Shown: positions 18,122 to 24,834 of the stretch, piece after piece
Numbering within the stretch: position 1 is the first letter of the stretch
Layout: every line of letters begins with the position of its first letter
Source: Clostridia bacterium
Lineage (GTDB): Bacteria; Bacillota; Clostridia; UBA1381; UBA9506
Assembly: GCA_017416855.1 (NCBI GenBank)
Contig: JAFQAZ010000021.1
Location: forward strand, 1-64,000
DNA: 64,000 nt
Direction: 5' to 3'
Translations under genes and position numbers: made by a program
The notes under the pieces: generated by a model
What the model saw: only the letters and a program-made list of their open reading frames with translations
Database searches by the model: none
What the model was told of the DNA's origin: nothing

Positions 18122-19189
18122 TTACAGTTTAAGTGCTTCTCGCAAAGCAGGCTCAATGGCTTTTGTCATTAAGTAAAAGCCTAAATCTGTAGGATGGGTG
18201 CGGTCAGCCGTTGGATATTCATAGCCCACTTCTTTGAAAAATTCCATACCGTCTACAAAATAAACATTTTTATCGCCCTGAGCCCGAGCGTTTAAATAGG
18301 TTTGCTTCACCATATCGCGACGCTCGATATCCAGATCATAATTCTCAATTTTTCCAAAGGGTTTGCTGATGATAATCACCGGCAAATCAGGATGTTGTTC
18401 GCGGATAATTTTAAAAAATGGTTCGTGAGTTTTGCGCAGATGTTCAATGTTGGGTGCATTGTGGTCGTAGTCCATCACAAAGCAGGATAAATCCAGCTTA
18501 GCAATCCACTCTGCCCACTCCGGCTCACCCAAAGCATTGCCAGAAAAGCCTAAGTTAATCAGTTCTGCATCGGCAATAGCTGCAAGCAACGGTGCATGAC
18601 CATTAGACGGACGAGATGCACAGGCCCCCTGAGTAACGGAAGAACCGTAAAATAAAATGGGTTTTTCTGTTTTGTGAGCCGGTGCTTTTTCCACCTTTGA
18701 GCCTTTCACCAAGCCAATTTCAAGCCATTCAATGCCCGCATAGGTGGGCATATAAATTCTGTATTCATGCATACCATCGCGCAGGTAGCAGGAATATTCA
18801 AAATCAAATTTTTCTGCACAAGCATCTGCCGCACTCTTCTGGAAATTCATCACCAGAACGTTTTTGCTGTTCTCCCACATCATCACATCAAAACCGCTTT
18901 GACCGGATGGCGGTGTGCGGGGTGAGGGCACAAAAGGAATATAACGCCCTTTAAGCATAATGGCTTCACTATCAGTACAGAAACGGATGACACCGCCGGA
19001 AGAATGCTTCAAAAGACGTGCCACCTCCGGACTGACCTCAAGTTCATCCGGCAACCTTCGATAGGGCTTTTCGTTGATGTCTTCCCAGGGAAAGCCTTCC
19101 AAAGTCAACTCTTGTGGCGTGAACATCAGAAACTCAACGCCTTCAACTTTTGTTACAGCAAAGTTTTTATCTAATGTTGCTAAATCCAT
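18122..19189 (-). CDS. SGNH/GDSL-type hydrolase with N-terminal beta-domain (copy 2)
   Basis: 355 residues, no signal peptide. The N-terminal half looks like a beta-sandwich; the C-terminal half is an SGNH hydrolase: FYGSSVTQG (about residue 180) carries the nucleophile Ser, LGFSGNALG gives the Gly block, and DRTHPTDLGFYLM near the C-terminus gives the Asp/His pair. Such enzymes deacylate carbohydrates or act as esterases; the substrate is unknown. It lies 23 bases after a paralogue of nearly equal length and is followed by a terminator. Confidence 0.85.
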   Translation of the reverse strand: MDLATLDKNFAVTKVEGVEFLMFTPQELTLEGFPWEDINEKPYRRLPDELEVSPEVARLLKHSSGGVIRFCTDSEAIMLKGRYIPFVPSPRTPPSGQSGFDVMMWENSKNVLVMNFQKSAADACAEKFDFEYSCYLRDGMHEYRIYMPTYAGIEWLEIGLVKGSKVEKAPAHKTEKPILFYGSSVTQGACASRPSNGHAPLLAAIADAELINLGFSGNALGEPEWAEWIAKLDLSCFVMDYDHNAPNIEHLRKTHEPFFKIIREQHPDLPVIIISKPFGKIENYDLDIERRDMVKQTYLNARAQGDKNVYFVDGMEFFKEVGYEYPTADRTHPTDLGFYLMTKAIEPALREALKL

Positions 19190-19212
19190 GTGTACTCATC
19201 CTTTTCTGTCAA

Positions 19213-20286
19213 TTATAATCCCAGCGCCTGCTTAAGGGTTGGCAAAATTCGTTTCGTCATCAGATAAAAACCTAAATCCGTGGGATGGCATCTGTCAACC
19301 GTAGGCCACTCAATGGCTTCTTGGGCAAAGGTTTCCAGCCCATCCACAAAGTAAACATGTGCATCTCCCTGCGTACGAGCGTTTAAATAGGTTTGCATAA
19401 TGATATTCCGGCGTTTGGTCGTATCCTCCAGGTTATCCGGATTGGTAAAACAGCGACTGATCATAACCACCGGCAAATCAGGATGCTTTTCACGAATAAT
19501 CTTAAAAAACGGTTCGTGGGTATTCTGCAGATGTTCCGGAGTGGGCGCATTATAATCATAATCCATTACAAAACAGGATAAATCCAAAGAGGCAATGAGC
19601 TCTGCCATTTCCTTTTCACCTTTGGCATTGCCGGAAAAGCCTAAATTTATCTGTTCTGCATCCACCGCCTGAGAAAGCAATGCAGCGTGGCAGTTTGAGG
19701 GTCTGGATGCGCATCCGCCCTGGGTAATGGAAGAGCCGTAAAATAAAATAGGTTTCTCCACTTTATGTATCGGTGCTTTTTCAATGGTCGCTCCTTCAGA
19801 CAAACCAATCTGCAAACTTTCAATTCCGGAATACAATGGCATAAAAATTCTGTATTCATGCATACCCTCCGGCAAGGCCCGAGAAAATTCAAAGGAAAAG
19901 TTTTTCTCTGCCACAGGGATGGAATCAATCTGCAAATTGCCCAGAAAAATGCCGCGGCCGTTTTCCCACTGCACAATATCAAATCCCGCCTGACCGGTGA
20001 TGGCCATATGGGGCATAATCCAAAACGGATAATAATTTCCTTTTAATAAAATAGCCTTACTATCTGTCCGGAAGCGGATAACACCACCGGCTGTATGTTT
20101 GGCCAGATTCTGCAAGTTTTCATTTAAATCAGGCAATACTCTTTCCGGCAAGCGAGTAAAAATATGTTCATTCTCTTTATGCCAGGGAAACCCTTCTAAA
20201 CCCAATTCTTCCGGATTATACATGGTAAAATTCACGCCATTGACCGAGCAGGTGGCAAAATTCGTATCAATTTTCTTTAAATCCAT
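19213..20286 (-). CDS. SGNH/GDSL-type hydrolase with N-terminal beta-domain (copy 1)
   Basis: 357 residues, collinear with the downstream gene over the whole length and roughly half identical by eye. Same catalytic blocks: FYGSSITQG (Ser), LGFSGNAKG, and DRCHPTDLGFYLM (Asp/His). N-terminal beta-domain of about 170 residues, no secretion signal. A tandem duplication retained with both active sites intact suggests related but different substrates. Confidence 0.85.
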   Translation of the reverse strand: MDLKKIDTNFATCSVNGVNFTMYNPEELGLEGFPWHKENEHIFTRLPERVLPDLNENLQNLAKHTAGGVIRFRTDSKAILLKGNYYPFWIMPHMAITGQAGFDIVQWENGRGIFLGNLQIDSIPVAEKNFSFEFSRALPEGMHEYRIFMPLYSGIESLQIGLSEGATIEKAPIHKVEKPILFYGSSITQGGCASRPSNCHAALLSQAVDAEQINLGFSGNAKGEKEMAELIASLDLSCFVMDYDYNAPTPEHLQNTHEPFFKIIREKHPDLPVVMISRCFTNPDNLEDTTKRRNIIMQTYLNARTQGDAHVYFVDGLETFAQEAIEWPTVDRCHPTDLGFYLMTKRILPTLKQALGL

Positions 20287-20303
20287 GGTCTGTCATCCTC
20301 TCA

Positions 20304-21191
20304 CTATAATGGTTTAACTTGTACTGCATTAAACTTTTCTAAAAGATAAGCCGGGCGATAGGCAAGCTTTGTCTGTCTGAGTCCGGGAAGACCCATATCT
20401 TCTTCACGATTGACATATTTGAAGTTTGTCCATTCGTGAGCACAAAATTCGCTATTAATTACATTGAACAGTCCACGGTAATCCAATGCAAACTCTACGT
20501 GGATTAAAGCCGTATCCTCTGAAACCGGTTCTCCGATGGAAAAGGCTGAAAGCTTTCCATCCAGATAAATGCCGCCACCACGAACAGGCAAGTCATCAAA
20601 ATGCTCTAAAAGCTTGACGGCAGCATTGCGGGACGCCGTCATATCCTCTTCCCCTCCCTTTTCTGCCACCCAGGCATCGAACAGGGACATACAAGCCGGC
20701 ATATCGGCCTGTGTTAACGTTTTATATTCATAGGAATAATTATTTTTAAAATAGTTAAAATGATTCCGTTTGGCATGGAGTTTTTTGCCTGAAAGGGTAA
20801 TCATTTTCTCAGTTTCATAAATGTAGTCTGCCGTGTTTCTGTCTTCTACAAATTCAAAGCAGCCCGGGAACATTACTTCCAATTCTTGTACCATATAATC
20901 GGACAGATTGCGGAACACCGGCCGAAAGCCCTGTTTCTCCAAGAAAGAAGATACGCTAAGAACAGCCGCCCGTTTATCCCCTTTTCCCACAGGGTAAGAG
21001 GCCGATAAGGGTTGCTTTTTCCCCTGAAAGAACAGAACAAGACAACCCTCTGTCAGTCCGTAGGTAATAAACCCGTCTCCTGCCCAGATGAACATATTGG
21101 TAAAATTATAAGTTGAATTGTTTTCATTCTGAATGTACTGTTCAAACACCTGTTGATCAGATAATTCAATTCTCTTCCGTTTCACTGCCAA
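20304..21191 (-). CDS. DUF2156 (phosphatidylglycerol lysyltransferase-like, GNAT fold) protein
   Basis: About 295 residues. Matches the stand-alone DUF2156 proteins: SDQQVFEQYIQNENNSTYNFTNMFIW at the N-terminus, KKLHAKRNHFNYF in the middle, and FKYVNREEDMGLPGLRQTKLAYRP near the C-terminus. This is the acyltransferase-like domain also found at the C-terminus of MprF; stand-alone members lack the flippase part and their substrate is unknown. The open frame reaches a GTG at 21245, but homologues begin near KRKRIELSD; a TTG at 21191 with GGAG five bases upstream is chosen. Probably transcribed with the two SGNH genes. Confidence 0.82.
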   Translation of the reverse strand: MAVKRKRIELSDQQVFEQYIQNENNSTYNFTNMFIWAGDGFITYGLTEGCLVLFFQGKKQPLSASYPVGKGDKRAAVLSVSSFLEKQGFRPVFRNLSDYMVQELEVMFPGCFEFVEDRNTADYIYETEKMITLSGKKLHAKRNHFNYFKNNYSYEYKTLTQADMPACMSLFDAWVAEKGGEEDMTASRNAAVKLLEHFDDLPVRGGGIYLDGKLSAFSIGEPVSEDTALIHVEFALDYRGLFNVINSEFCAHEWTNFKYVNREEDMGLPGLRQTKLAYRPAYLLEKFNAVQVKPL

Positions 21192-21284
21192 TCGTACTCC
21201 ATTTCTCAAATACACTGTTGCAAAAACCTTCTCAAAGCTTTGCACCGGTTGCGCTCATAGTTTTCCCGTTTTTAAGTTTTTTAC

Positions 21285-21890
21285 TTATTTTACATTTTTA
21301 TCTTTCACCGGTTTAATAAAGCTGATGATTTTACCCACCATAAAAATAATAGAGTTGCAATTTGATATAGCAATACCTTTACCAATGGCTTTACCACCCA
21401 CCGTTAATGCCGCTACAAGCCCCGCCAACACAATTGATAAAATGAACTCATGATTTCCTGTACTGAAACTGTTCAGCATCACAACAATAGCCGTGGTAGC
21501 ACTACCGGAAACAATACCGGCAATGTCACCAATGACATCGTTACAAAAATTACCAACCTTATCTGCATTGCGGATTAGCACAATGGCTTCTTTCGCGCCA
21601 CGCACGCGGTGGGATGCCAAAGAATGAAAGGGAACTTCACTGGTTGCCGTAACTGACACACCTATAATATCAAAAATAATACCGATGAAAATAAAAGAAA
21701 ACAGCAATAAACAAGCAACGAGCAGCGTTACCCGGCTCATCAATCCGGCCTGAATCATTTGCATAAAAGACGAAATGAAAAAGGTCCAGATGATGCTGGT
21801 AACTACCCATTTATAGCTTATCTTTCTGTTTCCCACATTGTTTCTTCTAATTTTAATTTTCTTCTTTTTACTGCAACTGTCTTCTGTCAA
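21285..21890 (-). CDS. oapA: OLE-associated membrane protein OapA (DUF21-like)
   Basis: About 201 residues with a basic N-terminus and four hydrophobic segments (about residues 20-40, 50-75, 120-140, 150-175). The core GIIFDIIGVSVTATSEVPFH and RNADKVGNFCNDVIGDIAGIVSG resembles the DUF21 domain of CorB/CNNM magnesium proteins without the CBS part. OapA binds OLE RNA and tethers it to the membrane in Bacillus halodurans. The TTG at 21890 is chosen because AAAAGGTGG ends five bases upstream. It lies directly after the noncoding block assigned to OLE RNA, the expected arrangement. Confidence 0.85.
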   Translation of the reverse strand: MTEDSCSKKKKIKIRRNNVGNRKISYKWVVTSIIWTFFISSFMQMIQAGLMSRVTLLVACLLLFSFIFIGIIFDIIGVSVTATSEVPFHSLASHRVRGAKEAIVLIRNADKVGNFCNDVIGDIAGIVSGSATTAIVVMLNSFSTGNHEFILSIVLAGLVAALTVGGKAIGKGIAISNCNSIIFMVGKIISFIKPVKDKNVK

Positions 21891-21939
21891 GATAACCACC
21901 TTTTCAGTTATTAAAAATTAAAAGAGTGGTAATGAATGA

Positions 21940-22552
21940 AGTAAATTTTGCGGTTTAGGTCCGGTAGGTTTTCCCAAAGAGCAACTGAAATGTCGCCAAA
22001 TCAGCAGTTTCCTTTTCATGCTCTCTCTGCGGGGTTACCCGTCGCAGCACCAGATCGCCACTTAAGTCCGCACTGCAATCCTTCATCCACCTCAAAATGA
22101 ACAGTCTAGAGGTTTTCCCAAACAGTCTTACTCATTCTTAGCCTCTTTTGCAATAGAGGTTTCAAGCAGCAATAACTCAATGTTTTTGGCCGAAAACAAA
22201 GAGTTTGATCCGCTATCCACCAATACCACTCAAGGCAGGCTACACTGCCCACAGCACTTCATCACCAAAAAGCAAATCCGCACCGCCTGGCAGGTTTAAT
22301 CCTGCTTCGTACCTCATAAACGTCCACGCAGCAAGCTGCGCCGGAGCATCTGATGGCACAAGAACAGGTCTCCACGGCAGAGGGGTCGGGGTCCACATGC
22401 CATTGCAGGCCGCCCCTAAGCCTTAACTCCCAGCACCAACCCCCGACTGGGCGTCGAAAGCAAGCACCAGAAACTTCATCGATGTGCCCTTCAACGGATT
22501 TTTAGGCCCGTCTTGGGAATGAGCAGAACTGACTAGAATACTGCACCACTCT
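21940..22552 (-). ncRNA. ole: OLE RNA (ornate large extremophilic RNA)
   Basis: About 610 nt between a DUF212 gene and oapA lack a credible reading frame, are richer in G+C than neighbouring spacers, and contain many short hairpins (for example CGCAGC-aa-GCTGCG at 22327-22340, GCAGG/CCTGC near 22290-22304, CCTCT/AGAGG near 22142-22158). A minus-strand promoter begins the block at about 22552. Size, strand, adjacency to oapA and the upstream ispA-xseB operon all match OLE RNA loci of anaerobic and extremophilic Firmicutes. OLE and OapA form a membrane ribonucleoprotein complex linked to magnesium and alcohol stress. Identification rests on context and size; ends are estimated. A covariance-model search would settle it. 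Confidence 0.85.
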
Positions 22553-22558
22553 GCATAT

Positions 22559-22567
22559 ATTATATCA
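22559..22567 (-). promoter_or_regulatory. Extended -10 promoter of OLE RNA
   Basis: Minus strand TGATATAAT (TGn at 22565-22567, TATAAT at 22559-22564), perfect extended -10. No good -35 at 17 bases (TTTTAC). Predicted start near 22552, which gives an RNA of the expected length up to the oapA leader. Confidence 0.7.
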
Positions 22568-22686
22568 TATTTTTTCAAAAAGTAAAATAGCAAAATTCAA
22601 AGAGAATTCTTTAATTTTATTATTTTAACTTCAAATCTCTGTTTTTTCTCCGCAAGCCGTGTTTAATCTTTTGTTTTTGCCTTTTA

Positions 22687-23154
22687 TTACACGCAAAGAT
22701 ACATAAACAAGCCAATCAGAACGCCTAAAACAGCCCCCACAAACACTTCGACGGGCGTATGTCCGATTAGTTCTTTTAAACGTTTTCCTACTGTCTCCGG
22801 GCTGTCCTGCCCGAAATTTTCAATGATATCATTTAAAATTTCCGCCTGTCGACCGGTTTCCCTGCGCACACCGGTGGCGTCATACATCACCACAAAGGCA
22901 AGCACTGCTGCAATGGCAAACTCCGGAGAATCCGTTCCGCAGGCAAAACCCAAAGCCGTTAACAGCGACATCACAAAAGATGCATGGGAACTGGGCATAC
23001 CGCCTGATCCGATCCAACGGCGGATATCAAACCGCTTTTCTTTAATCAAAACAAAAACGACCTTAAGAGTTTGTGCAATTAACCATCCTAAGAGAGCTGT
23101 TAATAACACTTTGTTAGAAAAAAGCTGTTTCAAAAAAACCAACTTCATCACCAT
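22687..23154 (-). CDS. Divergent PAP2/DUF212 family membrane protein (YuiD-like)
   Basis: 155 residues with four hydrophobic segments and the motif pattern of the divergent PAP2 family: GSGGMPSSHASFVMSLLTALG near residue 50, VMYDATGVRRETGRQAEILN near 90, and GHTPVEVFVGAVLGVLIG at the C-terminus. These are phosphatase-like motifs; the substrate is unproven, but linkage to ispA suggests a lipid or polyprenyl phosphate. Start ATG 23154 or 23148. It lies 32 bases after ispA. Confidence 0.9.
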   Translation of the reverse strand: MVMKLVFLKQLFSNKVLLTALLGWLIAQTLKVVFVLIKEKRFDIRRWIGSGGMPSSHASFVMSLLTALGFACGTDSPEFAIAAVLAFVVMYDATGVRRETGRQAEILNDIIENFGQDSPETVGKRLKELIGHTPVEVFVGAVLGVLIGLFMYLCV

Positions 23155-23186: not shown

Positions 23187-24065
23187 TTACCGGTCTCTTC
23201 GCAGCAAAAATAAAGACAACTCCTTTAAAAAGGCGCCACGTTCGCCATATACTTCCAGCGTATCAATGGCGTTTTGCGTATAATCCTCCAGCATTTTTTT
23301 GGATTGTTCCAGACCATATAGCGTCACAAAGGTGGTTTTTTCATTGGCGCTGTCGCTGCCGATGGTTTTACCTAAAACCTCTGTACTGCTCTCCACATCT
23401 AAAATATCGTCTTTAATCTGGAAAGCTACACCTAAATACCGGGCGAAATTTTCCATATTCAAAACATCTTCTTTGCTGGCACCGGCAGCCAAAGCACCTG
23501 CTTTGGCAGAAGCCATCATAAGGGCGCCGGTCTTATGTACATGCATAGCCATTAAGGTTACCGAATCCACACTCTTACCCTCAGATTCCAAGTCAATCAC
23601 CTGTCCACCGATCATACCCTCTGTGCCGGATAATTCAGCCATAACCTTAAGAGTTTCCAGCGTAACAGCCGGATTAACCTTAGAATGGTTCAGAACCGTT
23701 TCAAAGGCTGCATTTAAAAGCGCATCGCCGGCCAAAACAGCCATAGCTTCACCGAACACAATGTGATTGGTGGGCTTGCCGCGACGCAAGTCGTCATCAT
23801 CCATACAGGGCAAATCATCGTGAATCAGAGAATAGGTATGTATCATTTCCATTGCACAAGCAAAAGGCAGTGCATCTTCTGCATTACCAAACAGCTCTGC
23901 GCAGGCAAGACAAAGCACAGGACGAATCCGCTTGCCACCGGCAAACAGACTGTATTCCATTGCTTCATACACCGACATCTGATGATTTTCTTTCTTTACA
24001 AAGTAGGTTTGCAAGCCCTGATTTGCCATATTGATTTTTGCTTCAAATTCCGTTAAAAAATCCAT
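23187..24065 (-). CDS. ispA: Polyprenyl synthetase (farnesyl/geranylgeranyl diphosphate synthase)
   Basis: 292 residues. First Asp-rich motif DDLPCMDDDDLRRG (about residues 80-93), GDALL after it, and second motif KDDILDV (about 220) are intact. The enzyme condenses isopentenyl diphosphate with allylic diphosphates to make C15 or C20 prenyl diphosphate. Start ATG 24065 follows AGGAGG. It is between xseB and the DUF212 gene, the order usual for clostridial isoprenoid operons near OLE RNA. Confidence 0.94.
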   Translation of the reverse strand: MDFLTEFEAKINMANQGLQTYFVKKENHQMSVYEAMEYSLFAGGKRIRPVLCLACAELFGNAEDALPFACAMEMIHTYSLIHDDLPCMDDDDLRRGKPTNHIVFGEAMAVLAGDALLNAAFETVLNHSKVNPAVTLETLKVMAELSGTEGMIGGQVIDLESEGKSVDSVTLMAMHVHKTGALMMASAKAGALAAGASKEDVLNMENFARYLGVAFQIKDDILDVESSTEVLGKTIGSDSANEKTTFVTLYGLEQSKKMLEDYTQNAIDTLEVYGERGAFLKELSLFLLRRDR

Positions 24066-24088: not shown

Positions 24089-24319
24089 TTATTCAAAGGA
24101 ATATTCCTTAATTTCACCGTTTTCCTCTTGGGTTAAACGGGTGACCTTCTGTTCTGCCTGGTCTAAAAACTTCTGACTGGCCCGGGATAGCTTAATGCCC
24201 TTTTCAAAAAGTGCCAATGCCTGATCAAGCTCTACCTGACCATTTTCTAAGGTCTCTACTATTTCTTCTAATTCCTGCATGGTTTGTTCAAAGCTTTTCG
24301 TGCTTTTTTTCTCTGCCAT
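24089..24319 (-). CDS. xseB: Exodeoxyribonuclease VII small subunit
   Basis: About 76 residues, alpha-helical, with the family pattern FEQTMQELEEIVETLENGQVELDQALALFEKGIKL. It joins XseA to form exonuclease VII, which degrades single-stranded DNA. ATG 24319 is preferred over an upstream ATG at 24340 because AAAGGAG is 8 bases before it. xseA, usually immediately upstream, is not here; trmL takes its place. Confidence 0.95.
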   Translation of the reverse strand: MAEKKSTKSFEQTMQELEEIVETLENGQVELDQALALFEKGIKLSRASQKFLDQAEQKVTRLTQEENGEIKEYSFE

Positions 24320-24339
24320 GTTCGGTTCTCCTTTTTTCA

Positions 24340-24834
24340 TTAATCTTCAGGATATTGAGTTAAATGCCCGATGCTTTCCATGGAATCATAATCAAGCTGA
24401 CGAAGAGCTTCATACAGCACAATCGCAACAGCATTGGACAGATTTAAAGACCGTATATCCGGCAGCATAGGGATCCGTACACAGGACTCATAGTGTTCAT
24501 GCAATAAATCCTCCGGCAATCCTTTGGTTTCTTTACCGAACACCAAATAGTCCCCATCCTGATATACCGCATCAGAATGTCTTTTTTGTGCCTTGGTAGA
24601 ACAAAAATAATAGGTTCCCTTGCACTTTTCAAAAAAGTCATCCAAATTTTCGTAATAACGGATATCCAGCTCGTGCCAATAATCAAGCCCTGCCCGCTTC
24701 AGCTTTTTATCGTCAATTGTAAAGCCCATGGGTTTAACAATATGAAGCACACTGCCGGTGGCACGGCAGGTTCGGGCAATATTACCGGTATTCTGGGGAA
24801 TTTCCGGTTCCACCAGCACTATATTCATAGCCAT
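24340..24834 (-). CDS. trmL: tRNA (cytidine(34)-2'-O)-methyltransferase
   Basis: 164 residues, a SPOUT methyltransferase: NIVLVEPEIPQNTGNIARTCRATG at the N-terminus, FGKETKGLPEDLL near 100, and IRSLNLSNAVAIVLYEALRQL forming the C-terminal knot. It methylates the wobble ribose of tRNA-Leu isoacceptors with S-adenosylmethionine. Start ATG 24834 or 24828. One base separates it from the aminotransferase gene, so the two are probably co-transcribed. Confidence 0.93.
   Translation of the reverse strand: MAMNIVLVEPEIPQNTGNIARTCRATGSVLHIVKPMGFTIDDKKLKRAGLDYWHELDIRYYENLDDFFEKCKGTYYFCSTKAQKRHSDAVYQDGDYLVFGKETKGLPEDLLHEHYESCVRIPMLPDIRSLNLSNAVAIVLYEALRQLDYDSMESIGHLTQYPED

Follow-up and report, generated by a model that had tools for sequence, protein, structure and literature searches.

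The window (the whole 64,000-nt stretch of DNA analysed here) carries on its minus strand a complete OLE RNA gene followed directly by oapA, the gene for the membrane partner of this RNA. When the whole window was compared with Rfam using cmscan, the OLE family (RF01071) matched at 21910 to 22565 (−) with 513.9 bits and an E value of 7.8e-148, the gathering score being 50 bits, and the match spanned model positions 1 to 616 of 616 without truncation. No other Rfam family scored above its gathering score anywhere in the window. The sequence-only reading had named OLE here, to be given up if a covariance match and a similarity of the 201-residue protein to OapA were both absent, and the full-length match bears the identification out. 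With the same Rfam search, no second copy of OLE was found anywhere in the genome (2.37 Mb in size, 97% complete), and there were 0 matches in 14 control genomes.

The OLE gene, its promoter and its neighbours

The minus-strand noncoding stretch between a DUF212 gene and a membrane-protein ORF, as described earlier from the sequence, was found to be real, with no minus-strand ORF of at least 60 codons inside it. The size then given was about 610 nt; the covariance match is 656 nt long. Because the first matched positions overlap the −10 hexamer, the RNA more likely starts near 22552 than at the edge of the match; with the 3′ end placed near 21926, just past the 3′ strand of P1 (ACCACU), the mature RNA would be about 627 nt, compared to ~630 nt for the OLE of H. 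halodurans.

A sigma-70 type promoter lies at 22559 to 22586 (−), with TTTACT and TATAAT separated by 16 nt and the extended −10 element TGATATAAT at 22567 to 22559; it agrees with the consensus at 10 of 12 positions and has TG before the second hexamer. The region held 6 promoter-like sites, compared to 2.8 ± 1.6 in shuffled sequences, and this one extended −10 site in AT-rich DNA is, taken alone, weak evidence for a promoter. However, among 30 OLE loci (the window locus and those of related genomes), TGnTAnnnT was present at most 45 nt upstream of the conserved GGUGCAGUAU in 21, compared to 3.9 expected from dinucleotide shuffles, which argues that the promoter is a conserved feature and that the extended −10 proposed earlier at this position had been read correctly. 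A separate promoter for OLE is not new, since the OLE RNA of H. halodurans was already known to have its own promoter and to lie within an operon as well (PMC9723947). By the mechanism we propose, transcription of OLE would start at its own promoter, possibly with further transcripts coming from the xseB-ispA-DUF212 operon; oapA comes next, with no visible terminator between.

Upstream of OLE on the same strand are the DUF212 (divergent PAP2) gene (22687 to 23154; PF02681, E 1.1e-50), ispA for farnesyl diphosphate synthase (23187 to 24065; NF045485, 355 bits against a cut-off of 275) and xseB for the small subunit of exodeoxyribonuclease VII (24089 to 24340; PF02609, E 1.1e-20, and TIGR01280), in agreement with the isoprenoid context recognised before; Pfam and NCBIfam searches also showed a TrmL gene upstream of OLE. 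The oapA gene occupies 21285 to 21890 (−) and most plausibly starts with the TTG at 21890, judging from the putative RBS AAAGGTGG just upstream, and the 201-codon ORF of the sequence-only reading is right if this is the start. Downstream of oapA lies a gene for an LPG_synthase_C (DUF2156-type) protein (20304 to 21245 (−); PF09924, E 3e-46), which shares the interval 18122 to 21245 with genes for two tandem, related GxDLY/SGNH esterases of 357 and 355 aa. The locus is thus a typical and complete OLE-oapA locus, a further member of a known RNA family rather than a new principle, and its own promoter, the oapA neighbour and the isoprenoid operon have all been published for OLE before.

Conserved elements of the RNA and genes for its partners

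RNAalifold applied to an alignment of 30 OLE sequences gave a consensus fold of 170 pairs, 96 of which showed compensatory changes on both sides. The P4 hairpin with its conserved A-rich loop was located at 22493 to 22512 (−), and the A's of the loop, a dimer contact in the cryo-EM structure (PMC12265935), were invariant in all 30 sequences. P6/P6.1 lies at 22375 to 22420 (−), where the P6.1 loop UGGC can kiss the P5.1 loop GCCCA, and the long P9 with its palindromic GGCC loop, a self-kissing dimer contact, at 22174 to 22206 (−). All four loops (P4 A-rich, P5.1 GCCCA, P6.1 UGGC and P9 GGCC) are intact in the window RNA, and they are the dimer contacts of the cryo-EM structure (PMC12265935; an OLE dimer was also described in PMC12286853). 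Once folded, the RNA would dimerise through the P4, P5.1/P6.1 and P9 loops.

The region comprising J4a/5, P5/P5.1 and J5/6 (22421 to 22489 (−)) corresponds to the k-turn region to which OapC binds in H. halodurans, in which U84 and C85 are critical (PMC9723947). It includes AUCGAUGAAG with the equivalents of these two nucleotides, an equivalence drawn from what PMC9723947 and PMC12054373 give in their text and primer sequences. Both the U and the C were invariant across the 30-sequence alignment, and the OapC k-turn nucleotides AUCGAUGAAG and GGAGUUAAGG are intact in the window RNA. P6/P6.1 is the bS21 site of H. halodurans OLE, where CCUCCU mimics the anti-SD sequence (PMC12054373). In the window RNA this mimic is imperfect (CCCCUCUG, with ACCCCUCUGCC as the 3′ side of P6); a perfect CCUCCU mimic is a description from one species and is no requirement for membership in the OLE family. 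In the 3′ domain, hairpins with GGUAAC and GGCGAC loops (21981 to 22050 (−)) mark the region of the OapB site, probably P12.2/P13 as far as the exact stems can be assigned. The GGUAAC hairpin near this site is reduced or lost in several order-level relatives (L047 and L049 to L052), the remaining OLE being intact.

P7 and P8 (22240 to 22369 (−)) are both present, which makes this a full-length OLE and not variant 2, the published form without P7 and P8 (PMC11332333). The two stems are apically extended, including GCGCAG-CUUG-CUGCGU on P7, and the extensions, about 40 nt over the model, appear as insertions relative to the covariance model and within the alignment. Longer P8 (and P7) insertions were seen in three loci of sister genera (L041, L043 and L045), with OLE RNAs of 705 to 723 nt, some 90 to 110 nt over the 616-position model.

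Genes for the three published protein partners were found elsewhere in the genome, and the search for oapB and oapC homologues suggested by the sequence-only reading thereby succeeded for both. OapB is a 91-aa ORF in the gap between map and infA (L055, 1192 to 1467; E 8e-12 to the PDB entry 7k9b), OapC/YbxF an 80-aa ORF between rpoC and rpsL (L023, 1504 to 1746, minus strand; E 1e-11 to YbxF, 4lck), and the bS21 gene was recognised at E 1e-22. Going by these matches, the genome holds the complete published OLE RNP gene set; OapB and OapC genes are common in OLE-bearing species, though not universal. OapB, OapC/YbxF and bS21 would each bind their own site on the RNA.

The closest known systems are the full-length OLE and OapA of H. 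halodurans, Clostridium acetobutylicum and C. botulinum, which share with the window the whole structure model, the own promoter and the isoprenoid-gene neighbourhood. The H. halodurans and Clostridium systems likewise have oapA immediately downstream, genes for OapB, OapC and bS21, a P3/P3.1 of about 12 pairs, and the dimer loops of P4, P5.1/P6.1 and P9. The window RNA differs from them in the extended P7 and P8 and in the imperfect bS21 anti-SD mimic. The host differs as well, being no extremophile but a member of an uncultured gut Clostridia lineage, probably of gut-type anaerobes, since its nearest contigs are from metagenome-assembled Oscillospiraceae and other Clostridia, some of them from water-buffalo colon; the locus adds a well-supported, complete OLE instance in a gut anaerobe. 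GOLLD, ROOL and the raiA motif belong, like OLE, to the large structured RNAs of bacteria whose biochemical function is unclear, but the window RNA had no Rfam match to these at the gathering score, and it has the gene neighbours and partners of OLE. That the match could be a decayed, non-functional remnant of OLE is scarcely credible: with the host known from no more than a draft assembly such decay is conceivable, but the match takes in all 616 model positions at a high score, the conserved loops are intact, oapA is open and keeps its conserved residues, and no partner gene is missing.

OapA and its CNNM-like fold

A gene of the OapA family directly follows OLE in 28 of the 29 readable related loci, the exception being L032; of the loci that needed a closer reading, L042 ends at a contig edge, and L043 is one residue off in the search motif and encodes the same protein. 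Across 41 OapA sequences, D118, G121 and D122 were invariant, and the spacing of D118 and D122 is that of D100 and D104 of H. halodurans OapA, the pair mutated in its PM1 form (PMC9723947), the likeness being one of spacing.

Direct searches with the window protein gave little, with no Pfam or NCBIfam match at E 1e-3, an E value of 0.68 against Pfam CNNM, and no convincing match in a sequence search of the PDB. Comparison at the level of the family and of the fold was therefore needed. At the family level, Pfam CNNM was matched at E ≤ 1 by 36 of the 41 OapA family members, the best at 3.7e-9. The structure model (mean pLDDT 81.6) has long helices at residues 26 to 53, 56 to 82, 109 to 142 and 148 to 176, and a protein with four long predicted helices encoded directly 3′ of OLE fits the description of OapA as a four-TM protein of ~20 kDa. 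The best solved structural neighbours of the model were the TM domains of CNNM/CorB/CorC proteins (Foldseek, E 1.6e-3). In VIA-align, the CorB/CorC TM domains gave Z 12.0 to 10.3 over 124 to 131 residues, with MtCorB at 12.0 and the next unrelated rows at 7.6; a Z of 12 for a modelled helical bundle is, by itself, not decisive as proof of a CNNM fold.

By adjacency, conserved family and fold, the 201-residue protein is OapA, as the sequence-only reading had supposed; its earlier description as "DUF21-like" stands at the level of family and fold and fails for the window protein taken alone. A relation between OapA and MpfA has been published (PMC11332333), and the CNNM fold seen here agrees with it. 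MpfA, CorC and CorB are Mg2+ transporters of CNNM-CBS-CorC_HlyC architecture that have the CNNM TM fold in common with OapA; the distribution of OapA anticorrelates with that of MpfA. In contrast to these transporters, OapA lacks the CBS and CorC domains, has about half their length and works as the partner of a large RNA. The possibility that OapA is itself a full MpfA was rejected, as its 201 residues hold a CNNM-like fold only.

OLE and OapA versus MpfA in related genomes

The comparison set comprised 101 genomes, namely this genome and 100 relatives. OLE was found in 51 and OapA in 50, with both together in 49 and neither in 49. OLE occurred without OapA in G016 and G019 only, where OLE lies near a contig end in assemblies of low completeness, and OapA without OLE in G099 only. 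The latter genome (0.9 Mb) encodes a divergent OapA (E 5.5e-50; L082, 2826 to 3467, G099:C2) and had no RF01071 match at E ≤ 1; this may be an orphan OapA, or its OLE may be a shortened variant missed by the model.

No CNNM/MpfA protein was found in the genome of the window. Proteins of CNNM-CBS size were present in 7 of the 51 OLE genomes compared to 45 of the 50 others (Fisher p 1.5e-15, a statistic that ignores shared ancestry), while a test of independent pairs for the OLE/MpfA exchange within the family had 2 supported pairs, too few to reach significance. The replacement is not strict, given the 7 genomes in which OLE and a CNNM-CBS protein occur together. Within the genus of the window, seven genomes have OLE and OapA and lack MpfA, and three (G001, G006 and G008) show the reverse. 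The three form one clade (99/98) and hence represent one exchange, not three.

The sites concerned were read in these OLE-lacking sisters (L071 for G001, L068 for G006, L069 for G008, and L083 to L085), with aroE and glyS named from reading the translations. At the OLE site of G001 and G006, the ORF right after DUF212 is shikimate-dehydrogenase-like (aroE), the gene found behind oapA in G003, G007 and other sisters; in G008, ispA is followed by an LPG_synthase gene. No OLE remnant was detected in any of the three at E 0.1. Their MpfA has a CNNM domain, a CBS pair and CorC_HlyC (the G001 copy being truncated by the contig end), and its gene adjoins glyS in all three, lying between rnpB and glyS in G006 and G008. 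In this genome (G000; L092) and in G007, rnpB and glyS are direct neighbours with no MpfA between them; the gap was read in these two, and the OLE-bearing G003, G005 and G009 were left out.

The anticorrelation of OLE and MpfA has been published at the phylum level (PMC11332333), and the contrast between sister species is a species-level, two-locus version of it; in a limited search of the literature, we found no two-locus exchange within a genus. These same-genus sisters with an MpfA gene in place of OLE and oapA are the most useful new detail and lie outside the window. Tentatively, and with a little less than even confidence, we suggest that within this one genus the OLE RNP and MpfA are interchangeable devices, one kept and the other cleanly absent at two unlinked sites (DUF212/aroE and rnpB/glyS). 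If so, an RNA of ~630 nt and a bare CNNM TM protein would fill the role of a CNNM-CBS-CorC metal transporter made of protein alone. Few bacterial RNAs whose biochemical role is unknown are as large as OLE; a leading idea is that together with OapA it does what the Mg2+ transporter MpfA does, and cross-rescue has been mentioned as unpublished (PMC12265935). Close relatives that differ in exactly this exchange make the idea testable with little other divergence.

Overall, the locus is best explained, with good probability, as encoding a full-length OLE RNP that sits at the membrane with OapA and adjusts divalent-metal handling. To the RNA, promoter, OapA, partner genes and sister MpfA genes observed here, published work on H. 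halodurans and Clostridium would add, by analogy, the membrane location, protein binding, dimerisation and stress phenotypes. OapA, a TM protein with a CNNM fold and no CBS or CorC domains, would hold OLE at the membrane, and the complex would adjust divalent-metal handling and stress responses, with OLE doing the regulatory work of the CBS-CorC part of MpfA/CorC transporters. Since the biochemical activity of OLE is unsettled (PMC11332333, PMC12265935), we infer the ion-handling step, in which OapA would move ions and OLE would stand in for the cytosolic domains of MpfA. We consider it rather unlikely that OLE acts mainly as a ribozyme or as a general hub of stress responses (the Breaker group's "bTOR" idea), with OapA as no more than a membrane anchor that moves no ions. 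Such roles would fit so large and conserved an RNA, the range of phenotypes and partners described for H. halodurans (PMC12265935, PMC10898510) and the missing regulatory domains of OapA. Against them stand the transporter-type fold of OapA, whose helical core carries invariant acidic residues, and the alternation of OLE/OapA with MpfA, which is seen even among species of a single genus.

The membrane RNP reading also treats OLE as an RNA in its own right. One could suppose that OLE acts in cis, as a long leader of 600 nt controlling oapA, as it stands directly upstream of oapA in most loci, including this one, and no terminator-like site was seen between them. This is very improbable and nearly refuted, because in the sister species G009 a complete OLE (L032, G009:C6; E 1.8e-145) occupies the usual site by DUF212 with a glycosyltransferase gene after it, and the only oapA of G009 lies on another contig (L081, 2995 to 3630, G009:C21) with no OLE beside it; moreover, the OLE of H. 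halodurans is an abundant separate RNA of ~630 nt (PMC9723947). With OLE and oapA unlinked in G009, a pure cis-leader role was rejected, and the RNA must be more than a leader of oapA. The oapA of G009 adjoins an LPG_synthase-like gene (L081, 3713 to 4648), so that a gene of this kind follows the relocated oapA in G009 and ispA in G008, as it follows oapA in the window.
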